This document shows positions 1 to 16,024 of a stretch of 21,858 nt of DNA, piece after piece. The notes below the pieces were generated by a model. That model had not been told where the DNA came from. It saw nothing but the letters and a program-made list of their open reading frames with translations, and made no database searches. The stretch lies in the NCBI GenBank assembly GCA_014383605.1, contig JACNHM010000266.1, positions 1-21,858 on the forward strand. Reading direction: 5' to 3'. The stretch is from Chloroflexota bacterium. Its GTDB lineage: Bacteria > Chloroflexota > Anaerolineae > UBA3071. Position 1 is the first letter of the stretch, and each line of letters begins with the position of its first letter. A program made the translations under genes and the position numbers.

Positions 1-232
1 TGGTAGATTGGTAGATTGGTAGATTGGTAGATTGGTAGATTGGTGGATTGGTAGACTGGTAGATTGGTAGATTGGTAGATTGGTGGATTGGTGGATTGGT
101 AGACTGGTAGATTGGTAGATTGGTAGACTGGTAGATTGGTAGATTGCTAGATTGGTAGATTGGGTATCACTATCCCAATTTACCAATTTACCGGTTTCCC
201 AATCTACCGATTTCCCAGTTTCCCAGTTTACC
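1..232. repeat. Octanucleotide array with inverted second half, inside hdrA
   Basis: Positions 1-160 are twenty near-perfect copies of TGGTAGAT (variants TGGTGGAT, TGGTAGAC), continuing off the left edge. After a short centre with ATTGGGTA facing TATCCCAAT (about 160-180), positions 175-232 carry the opposite orientation as CCAATTTA, CCAGTTTC and CCAATCTA units. The whole forms a very large potential hairpin. It is read in frame by hdrA on the minus strand, giving 8-residue repeats such as WETGKLVN and LPIYQSTN. Confidence 0.95.
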
Positions 233-3200
233 AGCGCCTCTTCCAGCTCACGTTGGGTGATGACACCGGGCAGCTCGCCGTAGCCGTACTCCGTGGGCGT
301 GATCTGCTGTGCGCCGGTGGCGACGACGGTAGCGCCGTGGCTGATTTCCTGCAATTTGCCGTCGTCCAGCCGCACCAGCGTGCGGAACTTGCCCATGTAG
401 CCGCTGACTTCCTCTATCTCCGCCCCTGTAAACGCCGTGATGAGCGGGGTGGCAGACACGCGGCGGATGGTGTCACGGAGAAGCTCTTGGGGGTGGCTGT
501 GGTTGGATATTGGGTGTTGGATATTGGAATATCCAATATCCAGTATCTGTTTCCCAATGCCCACGTGGATGTGTCTGAGATTCCCGCCCAGTTCGTGCTC
601 TCTCTCGACAAGGTACACCGGATAGCCCTGCTCGGCGATGGAGAGAGCCGCGGTCATGCCCGCCAGCCCGCCGCCGATGACCAGGGCGTGGTGGTCAATG
701 TCGAAGGTGCCCGGCTCGAGAGCGTGCAGCCGGCGGGCCCTGGCCACGGACATGCGCACCAGGTCTTTGGCCTTGGCGGTGGCGATCTCCGGCGTGGCGC
801 GATGCACCCAGGAGTCCTGCTCGCGGATGTTGGCCAGGTGGAAGAGATGCGGGTTCAGGCCGGCCTGGCGCAGCGTGTCCTGGAACAGTGGCTCGTGCGT
901 GCGCGGTGTGCAGGAGGCCACGATGACCCGGTTCAGCCCCTGCTCTTCGATGCACTTCACGATGCGCTCCTGGGTGTCCTGCGAGCAGGTGTACAGGTTC
1001 TGATCGGCGAAGACCACGTCGGGCAGCGTGCTGGCGTACTCGACCACACTGGGCACGTCCACCACGGCGCCGATGTTGATGCCGCAATGACAGATGAAGA
1101 CGCCCACGCGGGGCGGTTCGTCGCTCACGTCCCGTTCTATCGGGTATACTGGTGTGCGGGTCAGCGTGTGACGGGCGGGCGCCAGCAGCGCCGAGGCCTG
1201 CGCCGCCGCGCAGGAGGCCTCGATGACCGTCTCCGGGATGTCCTTGGGCTCGGCGAAAGCGCCGGCCACGAAGACGCCAGGGCGTGAGGTCTGGCCGGGG
1301 GTGAAGAGGTCAGGCTCGGCGAAGCCGTAGTCGTTGAGTTCGACGCCCAGCCGCTGGGCCATCTCCACCGTCTCCGCCGAGGGCCGCAGCCCCACGGCCA
1401 GCACCACCATGTCAAATTCCTCTTCGTGGGGGATCGGCCGCCGCTGTCCATCGCCGTCCCTGCCCTCGAACGTGACATAACTCAGGCGGAGGTTGTGAGT
1501 TCCCGGGGCTTCCTTGACCGCCGAGACCATGCTGCGCACGTAGCGCACGCCGTATTCCTGCTCCGCCTGCTCGATGTAGCGCTCGAATCCCTTGCCGAAG
1601 GAGCGGATGTCCATGTAAAAGATGGTCGGCTCGATGTGGGCGTCGTGCTCGCGGGCGATGAGGGCCTCCTTGGTGGCGTACATGCAGCAGACCGACGAGC
1701 AGTAGCCTTGATCGCAGGTGATATCGCGGGAGCCAACGCACTGGATCCAGGCCACCTTGCGCGGGTGCTGCCCGTCCGATGGGCGCTTCACCTCGCCGGT
1801 GAAGGGGCCGGAGGCGCTGAGCATGCGCTCGAATTCCAGGCTGGTGACCACGTTGGGGTAACGCCCGTGGCCGAACTCGGGGCGGATGTCGCCGGGCAGC
1901 GGCTCCACGCCGGGCACCAGCAGCACGGCGCCGACGTCGAGCTGTACTTCCTGCTCCACCTGGTTGTGGTCAATGGCGTCGGCCTGGCAGGCGAAGGCGC
2001 ATTGCAGACATTCGGAGCAGATGCCGCAGGTGAGGCAGCGGGCCGCCTCGGCGCGTGCCGCCTCTTCGGTCAGACCGCCGTACACCTCGCGGAAGTCCTG
2101 CGTGCGCTCGGCGGCCGGCAGCTTGGGCATCTCCTGCCGGGCCGCAGCCGAAGCCTCTCCGCCGGCAACCTTGGCCCGAGCCTCGGCTTCAGTCAGCTCA
2201 ACGACCGGCATATTGGTAGATTGGTATATTGGTAGATTGGTAAGCTGGTCCACCAATTTCCCAATTTCCCAATTTCCCAATTTCCCAGTTTCCCAATCTC
2301 CCAATCTACCCTGGAGATAGAGATCAATGGCCCACGCCGCCCGATGCCCGGCGGCGATGGCGTCCACGATGAACTGCGTCCCCGTTACCGCGTCGCCGCC
2401 GGCGAAGAGGCCGGGCACGCTGGTGGCCAGCGTCTCCTTGTCCACGATGGGGAAGCGGCCGCGTATCTTCTCCACTTCGTCGTCCAAACAGGAGACGTCG
2501 GGCCGCTGGCCGATGGCGAAGATGACCACGTCGGCGGCGAGCACGTGCTCCGTTTCGGGGAACATGTTGAAGTCGGGGCGGCCATCCACGAAGCCGCGGA
2601 AGTCCACCTCCAGGCAGCGCACACCGGTCACCTGGCCGTCCTGGCTGGTGACCTCCTTGAACGTGCGCGAGGGGAAGAGCTCGATCCCTTCCTCCTGGGC
2701 GTCCAGGATCTCCCACTCGTGGGCGGGCATCGTCTCCCGGGATTCCAGGCAGGCCATGCCCACCCAGGCCGCGCCCAGCCGCACGGCGGTGGTGGCGGCA
2801 TCTACGGCCACGGCGCCGCCGCCCAGTACCAGTACTCGGTGATCGGGGATCAGTGATCGGTGATCAGGCATTTCCTGATCACTGAGACCGGATACCTGAT
2901 CACTGCTGAGGGCCACCTCGCGCAAGAAGTCCGTCGCCACGAGCACGCCGGGCAGGTCGGCGCCGGGGATAGGCAGCCGGGCGCCGACGTGGGTGCCGAT
3001 GGCCACGAAGACGGCGTCGTAGTCCTCCAGCAGCGCCGTGGCGTCCTCGACGCGGTGGTTGAGCTTCAGTTCGACCCCCTCGGCGACGATGGCGTCAATC
3101 TCCCGCTGCACCACCTCCGGCGGCAGCCGCAAGTCCGGCACGCCCACGCGCATCATGCCACCGGCCACCGGCAGCGCCTCGAACACGGTGGCGGAGTAGC

Positions 3201-4053
3201 CTTGACGCACCAGATCAAGCCCCGCTGTCAGCCCCGCCGGCCCCGCCCCCACAATCGCCACCCGCGCTTCGATTGCGGATTGCGGATTGCGGATTGCGGA
3301 TTGCCCCTTCGCTTGCGCCACTTCTTCCACATGCTCGTACGCCCAGTCGGCCACAAACCGCTTCAGGGCCATGATGTTGATGGGATCGTCCACCTTGCCG
3401 CGGCTGCAAGCATCTTCGCAGCGGTGGTTGCAGACCCGCCCGCAGATCGAAGGGAAGGGGTTGTCTTCCAGGATGGTGCGGTAAGCGTCGGCGTGGCGTC
3501 CCTCGGCGACGAGGGCCACGTAGCCCTGGGCGCGCTGGTGGATGGGGCAGGCGTCACGGCAGGGCGACGTGCCCAGCTTCTCGATGGCGTAGGCGTTGGG
3601 GATGGCCTGGGGATAGAGCTTGTAGACGGCATGCCGTTCGGAGAGGCCGCAGTTGAAGTCGTCCAACAGGGTGATGGGGCAGGCCGCCGCGCAATCGCCG
3701 CAGCCGGTGCACTTCTCCACGTCCACGTAGCGGGGGTGCTGCTTCACGGTGACGGTGAAGTGACCCGGCTCGCCCTCGACGCGCTCCACGTCGGCGCAGG
3801 TAAGCAGCTCGATGTTCAGATGCCGCCCCACCTCCACCAGCTTGGGAGACATGATGCACATGGCGCAGTCGTTGGTGGGGAAGGTCTTGTCGAGCTGGGC
3901 CATGACCCCGCCGATGGCCGTGGCCTTGTCCAGCAGGTAGACCTTGAGGCCGGCTTCGGCCAGGTCCAGCGAGGCCTGCATGCCGCCGATTCCGGCGCCG
4001 ACGACCAGCACAGCGCCGATGGGCTCTTTTCCGTCATCTGAAGGGATTGCCAT
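1..4053 (-). CDS. hdrA: HdrA-type heterodisulfide reductase subunit A fused to a GltD-like flavoprotein (3' end outside window)
   Basis: Large iron-sulfur flavoprotein, probably cytoplasmic, that would pass electrons between NAD(P)H and the HdrCB partner encoded just upstream. I read the frame triplet by triplet from ATG 4053 to base 1 and saw no stop, so at least 1351 residues. Domains: FAD motif GAGIGG at 19-24 followed by the HdrA signature FPTNDCAMCIMSPKL; a 4Fe-4S set C115/C118/C121/C125; a GltD-type Cys domain from C165/C169; a second Rossmann motif GAGPAG at 269-274; a nucleotide-binding GGG at 411-413; AGGDAVTG ending at 558; a second HdrA module with Cys 673-689 and WIQCVGSRD with C772; FICHCG at C988/C990; a third flavin motif GGGLAG at 1127-1132. 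Repeat-derived peptides interrupt it near 258-268, 384-408, 583-614, 1155-1178 and from 1274 onward. An RBS (GAGGAT) precedes ATG 4053. The family is certain; bifurcation is inference. Confidence 0.9.
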   Translation of the reverse strand, partial: MAIPSDDGKEPIGAVLVVGAGIGGMQASLDLAEAGLKVYLLDKATAIGGVMAQLDKTFPTNDCAMCIMSPKLVEVGRHLNIELLTCADVERVEGEPGHFTVTVKQHPRYVDVEKCTGCGDCAAACPITLLDDFNCGLSERHAVYKLYPQAIPNAYAIEKLGTSPCRDACPIHQRAQGYVALVAEGRHADAYRTILEDNPFPSICGRVCNHRCEDACSRGKVDDPINIMALKRFVADWAYEHVEEVAQAKGQSAIRNPQSAIEARVAIVGAGPAGLTAGLDLVRQGYSATVFEALPVAGGMMRVGVPDLRLPPEVVQREIDAIVAEGVELKLNHRVEDATALLEDYDAVFVAIGTHVGARLPIPGADLPGVLVATDFLREVALSSDQVSGLSDQEMPDHRSLIPDHRVLVLGGGAVAVDAATTAVRLGAAWVGMACLESRETMPAHEWEILDAQEEGIELFPSRTFKEVTSQDGQVTGVRCLEVDFRGFVDGRPDFNMFPETEHVLAADVVIFAIGQRPDVSCLDDEVEKIRGRFPIVDKETLATSVPGLFAGGDAVTGTQFIVDAIAAGHRAAWAIDLYLQGRLGDWETGKLGNWEIGKLVDQLTNLPIYQSTNMPVVELTEAEARAKVAGGEASAAARQEMPKLPAAERTQDFREVYGGLTEEAARAEAARCLTCGICSECLQCAFACQADAIDHNQVEQEVQLDVGAVLLVPGVEPLPGDIRPEFGHGRYPNVVTSLEFERMLSASGPFTGEVKRPSDGQHPRKVAWIQCVGSRDITCDQGYCSSVCCMYATKEALIAREHDAHIEPTIFYMDIRSFGKGFERYIEQAEQEYGVRYVRSMVSAVKEAPGTHNLRLSYVTFEGRDGDGQRRPIPHEEEFDMVVLAVGLRPSAETVEMAQRLGVELNDYGFAEPDLFTPGQTSRPGVFVAGAFAEPKDIPETVIEASCAAAQASALLAPARHTLTRTPVYPIERDVSDEPPRVGVFICHCGINIGAVVDVPSVVEYASTLPDVVFADQNLYTCSQDTQERIVKCIEEQGLNRVIVASCTPRTHEPLFQDTLRQAGLNPHLFHLANIREQDSWVHRATPEIATAKAKDLVRMSVARARRLHALEPGTFDIDHHALVIGGGLAGMTAALSIAEQGYPVYLVEREHELGGNLRHIHVGIGKQILDIGYSNIQHPISNHSHPQELLRDTIRRVSATPLITAFTGAEIEEVSGYMGKFRTLVRLDDGKLQEISHGATVVATGAQQITPTEYGYGELPGVITQRELEEALVNWETGKSVDWETGKLVNWDSDTQSTNLAIYQSTSLPIYQSTSLPIHQSTNLPIYQSTSLPIHQSTNLPIYQSTNLP
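505..545. repeat. Palindromic repeat insert inside hdrA
   Basis: Two copies of GGATATTGG (from about 505 and 519) lead into a perfect 11-bp inverted repeat, TGGATATTGGA at 518-528 and its complement at 532-542, with a 3-nt centre. It is translated in hdrA as an Ile/Asn/Ser-rich segment (GKQILDIGYSNIQ) that interrupts the otherwise conserved third flavin domain directly after ELGGNLRHI. Confidence 0.8.
2212..2310. repeat. Second octanucleotide inverted array inside hdrA
   Basis: About four TTGGTAGA-type units (2212-2245) are followed by a short centre and about six CCAATTTC-type units (2262-2310) in the opposite orientation, the same architecture as the array at 1-232. It encodes residues about 583-614 of HdrA, between the GltD-like half (ending AWAIDLYLQG) and the second HdrA module (starting MPVVELTEAEAR), so it sits at a domain linker and keeps the frame. 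Confidence 0.92.
2838..2906. repeat. GTGATC-type repeat with hairpin inside hdrA
   Basis: Several GTGATC/GATCAC words. The clearest structure is GTGATCAGG (2860-2868) facing CCTGATCAC (2874-2882) across a 5-nt loop, with a second CCTGATCACTG copy shortly after. It is translated in frame as a Ser/Asp/His-rich stretch just before the nucleotide-binding strand VLVLGGG of HdrA. A related copy is at 17111-17130. Confidence 0.8.
3271..3305. repeat. Heptanucleotide GATTGCG repeat inside hdrA
   Basis: Four tandem GATTGCG-like units. On the minus strand they give the peptide GQSAIRNPQSAIEA, placed exactly between the GltD-type Cys domain and the second Rossmann strand ARVAIVGAG. The frame is preserved across the array. 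Confidence 0.85.
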
Positions 4054-4082
4054 CCTGTGTATCCTCGTTTCGATACCACAAA

Positions 4083-4133
4083 CCGTGATGCGTGATCCGT
4101 GATCAGGTCACGTTTCACGCATCACGGATCACG
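4083..4133. repeat. Hairpin repeat at the hdrCB/hdrA junction
   Basis: CCGTGATGCGTG (4083-4094) pairs perfectly with CACGCATCACGG (4116-4127); alternatively CGTGATCCGTGAT (4091-4103) pairs with 4121-4133. The element fills most of the gap between the two genes and overlaps the last codons and stop of hdrCB (NVIRDA). It could stabilise or attenuate the mRNA between the two cistrons. No T-run follows, so it is not a classical terminator. Confidence 0.85.
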
Positions 4134-5389
4134 TTTCGCGTTGCTTCCATCGCCTGCTGCACCAGTTCCACCACGTCCATGGAGCGGAGGCGCAGGCGGC
4201 GGGCGTCTTTGTGCTGGCGCACGGCGCTGTTCAACGTGCGCTCGCACTGCTGGCAGGCGGAGGCGATGACCTGCGCTTCGATCTCGCAGGCCTGATCCAG
4301 CCGGCGCAGCGACACCTCGGAGACGACGTCGGGGTCGAAGCTCTCCAGGTTGCCGCCGCCGCCGCAGCAGTCCGATTCGTTGCCGTAGCCGGCCATCTCC
4401 ACGAACTCCAGGCCGGGGATGGACCGCAGCACGCGGCGCGGCGGGTCGAACACGCCGCTCTTGCGCCCCAGGTCGCAGGGGTCGTGGAAGGTCACCCGCG
4501 TCGGCATCTCGCCCAGCGTGATGGCCTGCTGCGCGATGAGTTCCTCCAGCAACTCCGTGGCGTGCAGGATCTCGAGGCCGATGTCCTCGCCCGTGGCCTC
4601 GGGGTAGATGAACTTCCAGACGTGGTAGCAGGAGGGGCAGGTGGTCACCAGGCGGGACGCGCCCAATTCCTTCACCTGGGCGATGTTGTGGCGCATCAGT
4701 TCCTCGGCCTCGGCCTGTCGCCCCATGGAAAGCAGCGGGAAGCCGCAGCACCACTCCTGTCCGCCCAGGGTGGTGAAATCGGCGCCGGCAGCTTCCAGGA
4801 TGCTGGCCAGCGCCTGGGGCACGCGGTAGCTGCGGGGGAAGAAAGACCCGACGCAGCCGACGAAATAGATGATCTCCGCCCCCCGCCGGCTTTCCAATCC
4901 CTCCGGGATGCGCGCCAGGTTCTGGCTCCAGATCAGCCGCTGGCGGTTGTCGTCGCCGCTGATGTTGTAGGATTCGGCAATGGTTTGCCCAAGCTGGTTC
5001 AAACGGCCCAGCCCGACGCACAGCCGGTCGTCAATGGTCGCTTGCGGCCGCTGCGCCAGGTAGTCGGCCAGGATCTCGCGCAGTTCCTGGCAGTCGCCTT
5101 GCCGGTAGCCGCGCTCGCCAGCCACGCGCCGCAGGGCGAGGATCACCTGTCCGGCGTCAATGTCGTTGGGGCAATGGGCGCCGCAATTCTCGCAGCCCAG
5201 GCAGAGCCAGATGTCGCGGCTGGTCAGCAGTTGCTCGGCCTGGCCGAACTGGATCATGCGCAGGGCGCGATCCGGCCCGTAGTCCATGGCGGAGACCACC
5301 GGGCAGCCGGCCGTGCACTTGTGGCAGTGGTAGCAGAGCTGGACGGTCTGGCCGCTCAGCGTGTTGATCTGTTCGAGAAAACGTGTCAT
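4115..5389 (-). CDS. hdrCB: HdrC-HdrB fusion (heterodisulfide reductase-like iron-sulfur / CCG-domain protein)
   Basis: 424 residues. The N-terminal HdrC part has two 4Fe-4S motifs, C19/C22/C25/C29 (CYHCHKCTAGCP) and C63/C66/C69/C73 (CLGCENCGAHCP). The C-terminal HdrB part has two CCG domains: EWCCGFPL with TTCPSC, and SDCCGGGGN with SACQQC, which in the family bind non-cubane 4Fe-4S clusters at the disulfide-reducing site. The ATG at 5389 is preceded by GGAG with 9-nt spacing. It is the first gene of the minus-strand operon and lies 61 nt upstream of hdrA, its expected electron donor. Family members reduce CoM-S-S-CoB in methanogens; the bacterial substrate is unknown. The C-terminal end is encoded by repeat sequence. 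Confidence 0.93.
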   Translation of the reverse strand: MTRFLEQINTLSGQTVQLCYHCHKCTAGCPVVSAMDYGPDRALRMIQFGQAEQLLTSRDIWLCLGCENCGAHCPNDIDAGQVILALRRVAGERGYRQGDCQELREILADYLAQRPQATIDDRLCVGLGRLNQLGQTIAESYNISGDDNRQRLIWSQNLARIPEGLESRRGAEIIYFVGCVGSFFPRSYRVPQALASILEAAGADFTTLGGQEWCCGFPLLSMGRQAEAEELMRHNIAQVKELGASRLVTTCPSCYHVWKFIYPEATGEDIGLEILHATELLEELIAQQAITLGEMPTRVTFHDPCDLGRKSGVFDPPRRVLRSIPGLEFVEMAGYGNESDCCGGGGNLESFDPDVVSEVSLRRLDQACEIEAQVIASACQQCERTLNSAVRQHKDARRLRLRSMDVVELVQQAMEATRNVIRDA

Positions 5390-14903: not shown

Positions 14904-15938
14904 GTGAAGATATCGGGAAGCGGAATGGTTAGAACTCTCATTGCATCCGTGTGCTTGTTGGCACTGCTTGGCGGCTGTGTCGTGCCGGCAGTGCCAGCGA
15001 CGGCCACACCAGCGCCACCGGCACCCACATCGCTGCCGCCAACGGCGACGTCGGTGCCCCCGACGGCGACACCGGTTCCACCCACCCCCACGCCGGTGCC
15101 ACCACCTGCCATTCCGGCGCCGCTCGCTCTCTCGCTGCTGCACACCAACGACACCTGGGGCTATATGCTGCCCTGCGGTTGACAGCCCCCCACCGGGGGT
15201 GTGGCCCGTCGGGCCACTCTGGTGCAGCAGGAACGAGCGGCAGCGGCCCCTGTGCTGTTGCTGGATGCCGGCGATACCCTGAACAGTGACCAATGGCCGG
15301 CTCAACAGAGCCAGGGAAAGGCCGTCGTTGAGGCCATGAACCTCATGGGCTACGACGCCATGGCCTTGGGCGAGGGAGATCTGCAACTCGGCCCAGAGGT
15401 ATTGCGCCAGCGCATGGCCGACGCCGCCTTCCCTGTCCTTTCGGCCAACGTGGAGTTGGAGGGCGAGCTTTTTGCCGAGCCCTACGTGATCAAAGATGTG
15501 GGCGAGCATCGGGTGGCCATCATCGGCCTCACGGGGATGATGCCCAGCCCCGTGCACGGCTTCCAGGTGGGCGATCCGCTGGCGGCAGCGCAGGCGGTGG
15601 TGGCCGAGCTCGGCTCACAGGCCGATATCATCATCCTTCTGGTGCACGTGGGACAGGCGATGGAGCAGCGACTGCAGCAGGAGATCGAGGGGATTGACGT
15701 CATCGTCGGTGGGACTCAGCCCCGAACGCCCAGCGCCCTCTGGGACGAGACCACCGGGGTGCTGATCCTGCCGTCGGAGCAGCCCAGCCCTGGCCACGCC
15801 GGGAGGCTCATCGGCCTGGCCCGGTTGGACTTCGATGGCTCAGGCCAGTTGACAAACCACGAGTCGCAGATGGTCTCGCTCACACCGGACTTCGCTGATG
15901 ATCTGGAGCAGATGAGCCTGTTGCAGAGCTACAAGTAG
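14904..15938 (+). CDS. 5'-nucleotidase-like (PCGC family) lipoprotein read through an in-frame TGA; candidate selenoprotein
   Basis: 344 residues if TGA 15180-15182 is read as selenocysteine (residue 93); otherwise split into 14904-15182 and a downstream frame from GTG 15201. Start GTG 14904 has AAGGAAGG seven bases upstream; ATG 14925 is an alternative. A lipoprotein signal (LIASVCLLALLGGC) and a Pro/Thr-rich linker precede the N-terminal UshA/5'-nucleotidase-like domain: LLHTNDTWGYMLPCG-TGA-, then QPPTGGVARRATLVQQERA, LLLDAGDTLNSD, DAMALGEGDLQLG and HVGQAME. Relatives carry PCGC followed by GG-ARRAT, so the TGA falls where Cys is expected (knowledge from memory). Usual metal ligands are altered (D-x-W for D-x-H; GEGD for GNHE), and the C-terminal nucleotide-binding domain is absent. 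A SECIS-like hairpin lies at 15201-15217. Confidence 0.75.
15183..15224 (+). promoter_or_regulatory. Candidate bacterial SECIS hairpin
   Basis: Immediately after the in-frame TGA, GTGGCCC (15201-15207) pairs perfectly with GGGCCAC (15211-15217) around the loop GTC, whose first base is G; an outer CACC/GGTG (15191-15194 / 15221-15224) can extend it. The loop lies 25 nt after the TGA. Bacterial SECIS elements are hairpins 16-37 nt after the UGA with a G among the first two loop bases (from memory), which fits. A competing stem CCCCC/GGGGG (15186-15190 / 15195-15199) exists, and GC-rich DNA forms hairpins easily. Confidence 0.5.
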
Positions 15939-15978: not shown

Positions 15979-16024
15979 TGCAAGAGGCAAGAGGCAAGAG
16001 GCAAGAGGCAAGAGGCAAGATGCA
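15979..16024. repeat. Heptanucleotide GAGGCAA array at a translation start
   Basis: Five to six GAGGCAA copies. The complement of the unit (TTGCCTC) reappears at 16070-16076 inside the signal-peptide codons of the next gene, so the array and the start of that gene form an inverted pair. Each unit contains GAGG, which resembles a Shine-Dalgarno core. Confidence 0.85.

Follow-up and report, generated by a model that had tools for sequence, protein, structure and literature searches.

A divergent single-domain UshA-like protein of Chloroflexota with a probable in-frame selenocysteine codon

The window (the whole stretch of DNA that was analysed, 21,858 nucleotides) carries a gene whose single in-frame TGA, at 15180-15182, is very probably read as selenocysteine (Sec), as judged from sequence. 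Comparison with relatives establishes, at the level of sequence, a conserved UGA, a Cys counterpart, a covarying hairpin behind the UGA, Sec-decoding genes in the genomes of relatives and the loss of a metal site. The Sec reading and the assignment of the protein to the UshA-like family are held with high confidence. Because the GNH motif is lost in 34 chosen rows of Sec-containing sequences, we propose that the product is a redox protein, anchored in the membrane, in which a dead phosphatase fold carries Cys-Gly-Sec, and a redox role of this protein is rated as moderately probable. Judged by its nearest relatives, the gene would belong to an uncultured Anaerolineae-type Chloroflexota. The gene and the parts of its product are as follows.

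14904..15938, + strand: probable complete selenoprotein gene with TGA as Sec, 344 residues from GTG 14904 (open frame and NF041198 match)
14925..14978, + strand: signal peptide with LLGGC at its end, read from sequence; LGGC at residues 22-25 taken as lipobox
14979..15119, + strand: Pro/Thr/Ala-rich linker from membrane anchor to domain (tandem repeat 14991-15103)
15123..15935, + strand: one domain of metallophosphatase fold, as in the N-terminal domain of CD73/UshA/SoxB, followed by the end of the frame
15174..15182, + strand: Cys91-Gly92-Sec93 motif, TGC GGT TGA, with putative Sec codon 15180-15182; C-G-TGA conserved, CGC in P0157

Apart from the TGA the frame is open up to its terminal stop TAG, with ATG 14925 as an alternative start. 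Reading through the TGA rebuilds HTNDTWGYMLPCG-U-QPPTGGVARRAT. Upstream of the TGA stand the first strand of the fold and its motif I (HTND); when both halves are modelled as one read-through protein, the pLDDT is 95.4. An earlier note on this DNA had claimed that two halves of one domain stand in the same frame, separated by a lone TGA, and that the product would be a lipoprotein with a Cys-Gly-Sec motif. The former is borne out by the open frame, and the latter is supported by the signal peptide with its LGGC, presumably a lipobox at which Cys25 would be lipidated, and by the conserved C-G-TGA. Judged by eye over 22 Sec-clade proteins, a similar signal ending in Cys is present in 17, a hydrophobic segment without a terminal Cys signal in four (L005, L010, L012 and L020), and no signal is visible in the open stretch of L017. 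A 7-base tandem repeat, GCAAGAG in 6.4 copies, occupies 15980-16024, directly 3' of the gene, where the next open reading frame starts.

Genomes were scanned with one genome per species, and the best 80 of 367 confirmed loci were kept. It was found that 21 of these 80 loci (L001-L020 and L029) have C-G-TGA at the place of residue 93, as in the window, and that the TGA persists down to 35% identity. The other 59 of the best 80 lack the motif and belong to more distant proteins of nucleotidase-like type; in 16 of these 59 the aligned column shows a Cys codon, with the first Cys absent. L069 and some other nucleotidases have PC at this place with neither Cys nor TGA two residues on, and they were set outside the clade. 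The nearest relatives of the window gene are L001 and L002; the closest, L001, is syntenic, with 85% identity in the aligned region and shared flanking genes. A second sample covered 400 genomes from the phylum of L001 (Chloroflexota), and the TGA-interrupted single-domain form occurs in at least six of them. Since at most three candidates per genome were scored in this sample, further copies may have escaped. One of the six, L099, is the L001 gene again, and the others (L094-L098) are five new TGA loci. L098, in genome G032, has C-N-T-TGA (CxxU), with the Sec codon one codon closer to the hairpin. Among plasmid records there were 259 distant matches, all below 60% identity and none covering 80% of the query, and among viral contigs there was one distant match.

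The Cys counterpart is P0157, a continuous full-length relative of 357 aa that reads ...DACGCSTPKGGVARRA, that is, Cys at the TGA position (motif CGC). When residue 93 is set against its homologues, it is TGA in 21 loci (best 80 of 367) and Cys in P0157, in agreement with the earlier claim of Sec at a conserved Cys position. Such a Cys/Sec pair is a sign by which selenoproteins are recognised, according to PMC13188914.

The dimetal site was examined by counting motifs over 34 chosen Sec rows, 10 of which are reference rows of the family model NF041198. L016 (a near-copy of L015), L099 (the same gene as L001), L094 and L095 (missed by the pattern used to make the references) and 7 of the 17 reference loci were left out. 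We take D-x-H, GNH and GGH as the dimetal-site motifs of phosphatases, and two of the changed places in the window protein are these.

15156..15158, + strand: Trp85 in place of the D-x-H His (motif I), which 2 of 34 Sec rows retain
15372..15377, + strand: Glu157-Gly158 at the Asn-His place of GNH; Asn in 0 and His in 1 of 34 Sec rows

The window protein reads HTNDTW, LGEGD and VGGTQ at the places of D-x-H, GNH and GGH, so that the test for a dimetal site was negative, and the GGH His is kept in 3 of the 34 rows. GNH is lost in the 10 reference rows too (Asn in none, His in one), while the canonical rows L124 and L125 have the dimetal motifs. With the residues of GNH and D-x-H lost, hydrolysis of phosphate esters is not expected, and phosphatase activity has probably disappeared. 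The label nucleotidase-like in the earlier note is thus right for the fold and does not hold for the enzyme, since GNH of the dimetal site is gone.

Relatives in another phylum carry haem motifs. In the phylum of L034, 297 genomes were scanned with NF041198; 98 gave a match at E 1e-40 or better and 57 a match over the cut-off, and one in-frame TGA is present in most rows among the matches listed. Thirty loci were fetched (L133-L162), of which the C-x(1-2)-U motif pattern recognised 17 and had no match in 13. Downstream of the PCGU domain, 15 of the 17 recognised loci have four CxxCH motifs, and L152 and L157 have none. These counts come from frames in which every TGA was read through; in five of the 15 haem-bearing loci (L137, L138, L139, L151 and L153) the Sec TGA is the sole TGA in the frame. 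L137, the one locus scanned, matches Pfam Cytochrome_C554 with 52 bits. The fusion to a haem domain in relatives suggests a redox role or electron transfer. No CxxCH is present in the window protein, and no open reading frame of at least 80 aa with two or more CxxCH was found in the flanks of 22 loci, several of these flanks being short. In the search for a partner gene in the same flanks, nothing beyond the gene itself and a mostly antisense cluster of open reading frames was common to more than 4 of the 22 loci. The Chloroflexota form must find its partner elsewhere.

These counts also bear on the alternative that survives best, namely that the protein, while a selenoprotein, has remained a hydrolase that depends on metal, with Sec or Cys as a metal ligand and not as the redox centre. 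The same fold is found in active enzymes, and several residues are retained: motif I has Asp in 33 rows and Glu in 1, the motif II Asp is kept in 34 of 34 and the motif IV His in 19 of 34. On the other hand, the GNH Asn, GNH His, D-x-H His and GGH His are almost entirely lost, as counted above, and the four haem motifs of 15 of the 17 examined reference members speak against hydrolysis as well. We therefore consider this alternative unlikely.

In the redox reading, which we prefer, SelB and Sec-tRNA would decode the UGA at 15180-15182 as selenocysteine, guided by the hairpin at 15201-15217. The product would be exported, lipid-anchored at Cys25 and kept off the membrane by the Pro/Thr linker, and its single domain would have the UshA/CD73/SoxB N-terminal fold with the metal-site residues lost. 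The likely catalytic group is Cys91-Gly92-Sec93, which directly follows motif I within what was once the active-site region, and its Cys91-Sec93 selenol/selenenylsulfide couple may act on an extracytoplasmic substrate in a redox reaction. This function is suggested by the motif, taken together with the loss of the metal site and with the fusion of relatives to a haem domain. A wider reading, on which we are evenly divided, is that a widespread metallophosphatase-fold lineage swapped its dinuclear metal site for Cys-Gly-Sec and became an extracytoplasmic selenol oxidoreductase, either wired to a tetraheme domain or free-standing as a lipoprotein. The tetraheme-linked form would be that of the relatives in the sulfate-reducer phylum and the free lipoprotein that of Chloroflexota. 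If this is true, the lineage would form a class of redox enzymes built upon a hydrolase scaffold. The loss of GNH and D-x-H together with C-x-U also gives a testable idea, that UshA-like selenoproteins perform redox chemistry and not phosphate hydrolysis.

Database copies of the protein were compared as well, with 157 relatives drawn from the best 120 of 393 and the best 120 of 2241 matches. P0157 is the one exception among the matches listed: the other 156 of the 157 are without the N-terminal part, none is longer than 280 aa, and no C-G-C/W/U..GG motif was found in them. Of the listed relatives, 76 start at most 12 residues before the RRA block. These 156 copies are truncated close to the Sec codon, and since many go by nucleotidase names the protein is probably misnamed too; the read-through frame corrects both faults. 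Taken at face value, the truncated copies might describe a pair of real proteins, a short lipopeptide that stops at the TGA and a phosphatase-like protein starting from GTG 15201. Gene callers do start the downstream part there, and P0002, which is 98% identical, begins with MARRAT. This is very improbable, because the first strand and motif I of the fold are placed upstream of the TGA, both halves are modelled together with the high pLDDT given above, and the Cys form P0157 is a single continuous protein.

The hairpin lies behind the TGA at the following place.

15201..15217, + strand: bacterial SECIS-like hairpin GTGGCCC-GTC-GGGCCAC, within the VARRAT codons

Its stem is formed by 15201-15207 and 15211-15217 and its loop, GTC, is 15208-15210, with 25 nt from the TGA to the loop G. 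The bSECIS model, as set out in PMC13188914, has a loop of 3-9 nt with G first and then mostly G or U, and a stem of 4-16 bp at 16-37 nt from the UGA with a minimum free energy of -7.5 or lower. The window hairpin falls within these published limits: its loop is GTC, its stem has 7 bp, its distance is 25 nt, and the 18-nt stem region has an energy of -13.4 kcal/mol. The GTC-loop hairpin that had been noticed 25 nt downstream is indeed there. Since the hairpin is inside the VARRAT codons, the synonymous positions alone were tested. At both third-position pairs the bases are Watson-Crick partners in all 22 loci (44 of 44 cases), compared with 5000 draws of codons from these genes that average 16.1 and never exceed 28, a null that counts related loci as independent. 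Compensatory double changes are found in L003/L004 and L009 (T-A) and in L005 (T-A). In five held-out loci the pairs are kept in 10 of 10 cases, with two more double changes (L095 and L098), and in L098 a stem pair is swapped to G-C. Among 13 non-Sec loci the pairs are present in 16 of 26 cases, and in 4 of 8 for the four loci sharing the RRA block; 9 of these 13 controls have Lys instead of Ala at one codon. At the second position of the loop, 27 of 27 Sec loci have G or T, where 38.6% is expected, versus 6 of 13 non-Sec loci. On the tree the changes of L003/L004 and L009 need two events, with one event in 0% of 200 bootstrap trees, although the strongly supported branches by themselves do not force two changes for L003/L004 and L009.

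The evidence for the hairpin is comparative and not energetic. The energy p values of single loci are just 0.022-0.167, with a combined value of 5.6e-10. In L010 and L012 a Thr codon leads to an A-C mismatch in the stem, and the energy of -6.7 misses the -7.5 of the model. The hairpin is absent from the 57-nt minimum-energy structure in 4 of 22 loci (L006, L010, L012 and L029). The folding energy of the window sequence over 51 nt is not better than that of dinucleotide shuffles (z -1.01), and other lengths gave z values of -2.71 (37 nt), -1.53 (43 nt) and -0.47 (71 nt). A hairpin nearer to the TGA (CCCCC...GGGGG), the first one behind it, was dropped as a part of the SECIS, its codon draws giving a combined p of 0.78. 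Rfam gave no element over its gathering score in the window. The covariation at synonymous sites makes a clear natural case of a SECIS hairpin constrained within a protein motif.

A lone stop that interrupts one domain could also come from a nonsense mutation in a pseudogene or from a sequencing error at the TGA. We regard this as extremely unlikely, because the same TGA recurs in separate assemblies, namely in 21 other loci down to 35% identity (best 80 of 367) and in five later loci. The conserved synonymous positions of the hairpin and the 156 of 157 relatives (matches listed) without the part before the TGA argue against it as well. A changed genetic code, in which TGA is an ordinary amino acid throughout, would leave the frame open too, but it is next to incredible, since TGA ends 7 of the 16 listed window genes and is thus a normal stop that has not been reassigned.

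Sec insertion in the source cell would need the decoding genes, which were searched for in 21 genomes with C-G-TGA loci, the relatives of the window gene. At least one Sec-decoding gene over its cut-off is present in 20 of the 21 (selB in 19, selA in 18 and selD in 19). A tRNA-Sec match is over the gathering score in 18 of 21 genomes and above 60 bits in 14 of 21; the weaker matches, of 47-51 bits, may be ordinary tRNAs. All of selA, selB, selD and a strong tRNA-Sec occur together in 12 of the 21 genomes, and G001, which carries the closest relative L001, is one of these 12. In G003 selA is over the cut-off, selB gives a split match in one frame and no selD is over the cut-off. The selD gene has one in-frame TGA of its own in 18 of the 19 genomes where its match is over the cut-off. 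No Sec gene over the cut-off was found in G009, the genome of L009. L009 is a C-G-TGA relative on a 7.4-kb contig from a metagenome-assembled genome titled Propionibacteriaceae, and in the tree it stands among Anaerolineae rows on a long branch. Given this position and the lack of Sec genes in G009, its contig is likely misbinned.

Elsewhere in the window, period-8 repeats of the TGGTAGAT and CCAATTTC types (24 nt, or 8 codons) lie at 1-233 and 2210-2305. Both are inside a long HdrA-like flavoprotein frame (- strand, 1-4074; Pyr_redox_2), which they leave unbroken and in which they encode NWETGKL/LPIYQST peptide repeats. The adjoining frame at 4115-5389 (- strand) has Fer4 and two CCG stretches in one frame, requires no in-frame TGA and is presumably HdrC-HdrB-like. 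ARAGORN found no tRNA in the window.

As for known systems, a search of the read-through protein against databases gave NCBIfam NF041198, 'UshA-like (seleno)protein', as the best match, with 139.7 bits over residues 75-316. The match begins upstream of the TGA, and the downstream half alone scores 118.2 bits. The C-x-U motif in the UshA-like domain of this model is present in the window protein, and the score is half of the curated cut-off of 275. The match spans positions 23-273 of the 519 in the profile, and the C-terminal half is absent from the window protein. No match over the NF041198 cut-off was found in the 400 sampled Chloroflexota genomes, and Pfam matched neither of the two halves, nor the read-through protein. 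A second model, NF049981 (UshA_like_Sel_2), gave 54.2 bits against a cut-off of 140, and the CxU of the window does not fit its motif. An ocean survey of 2008 listed UshA-like CxU proteins (COG0737) with 76 Sec and 92 Cys sequences (PMC2398784), and UshA-like selenoproteins are table entries in PMC9312934 and PMC13188914. With the UshA-like CxU form in print and the NCBIfam models at hand, the family is already known. The earlier claim of a new selenoprotein therefore stands for a divergent single-domain variant and fails for the family (NF041198, NF049981, PMC2398784, PMC9312934 and PMC13188914). What is new here is a divergent single-domain Chloroflexota subfamily, below the cut-offs of both models. 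No account of this clade of Chloroflexota, or of the loss of the metal site, turned up in a search of open-licence papers, which is weak evidence of absence.

When compared with the UshA and CD73 5'-nucleotidases, the window protein is without GNH, the D-x-H residues and the C-terminal domain, and has Cys-Gly-Sec instead. It is also far below the cut-off of 550 of TIGR04486 for the SoxB thiosulfohydrolase, whose dimetal motifs are lost in it; the kinship of fold with SoxB makes sulfur compounds worth considering as substrates, no more. NF049981 resembles the window protein in being a selenoprotein of single-domain length (262 positions), whereas its motif is CxxU (PMC13188914) and that of the window is CxU; the Chloroflexota relative L098 does have CxxU. 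The closest likeness is to NF041198 (UshA_like_PCGU), which shares with the window protein the C-x-U after motif I, the phosphatase-like domain, the in-frame UGA and the loss of GNH, while the window protein stops after the first domain and has none of the four CxxCH present in 15 of the 17 examined reference members.
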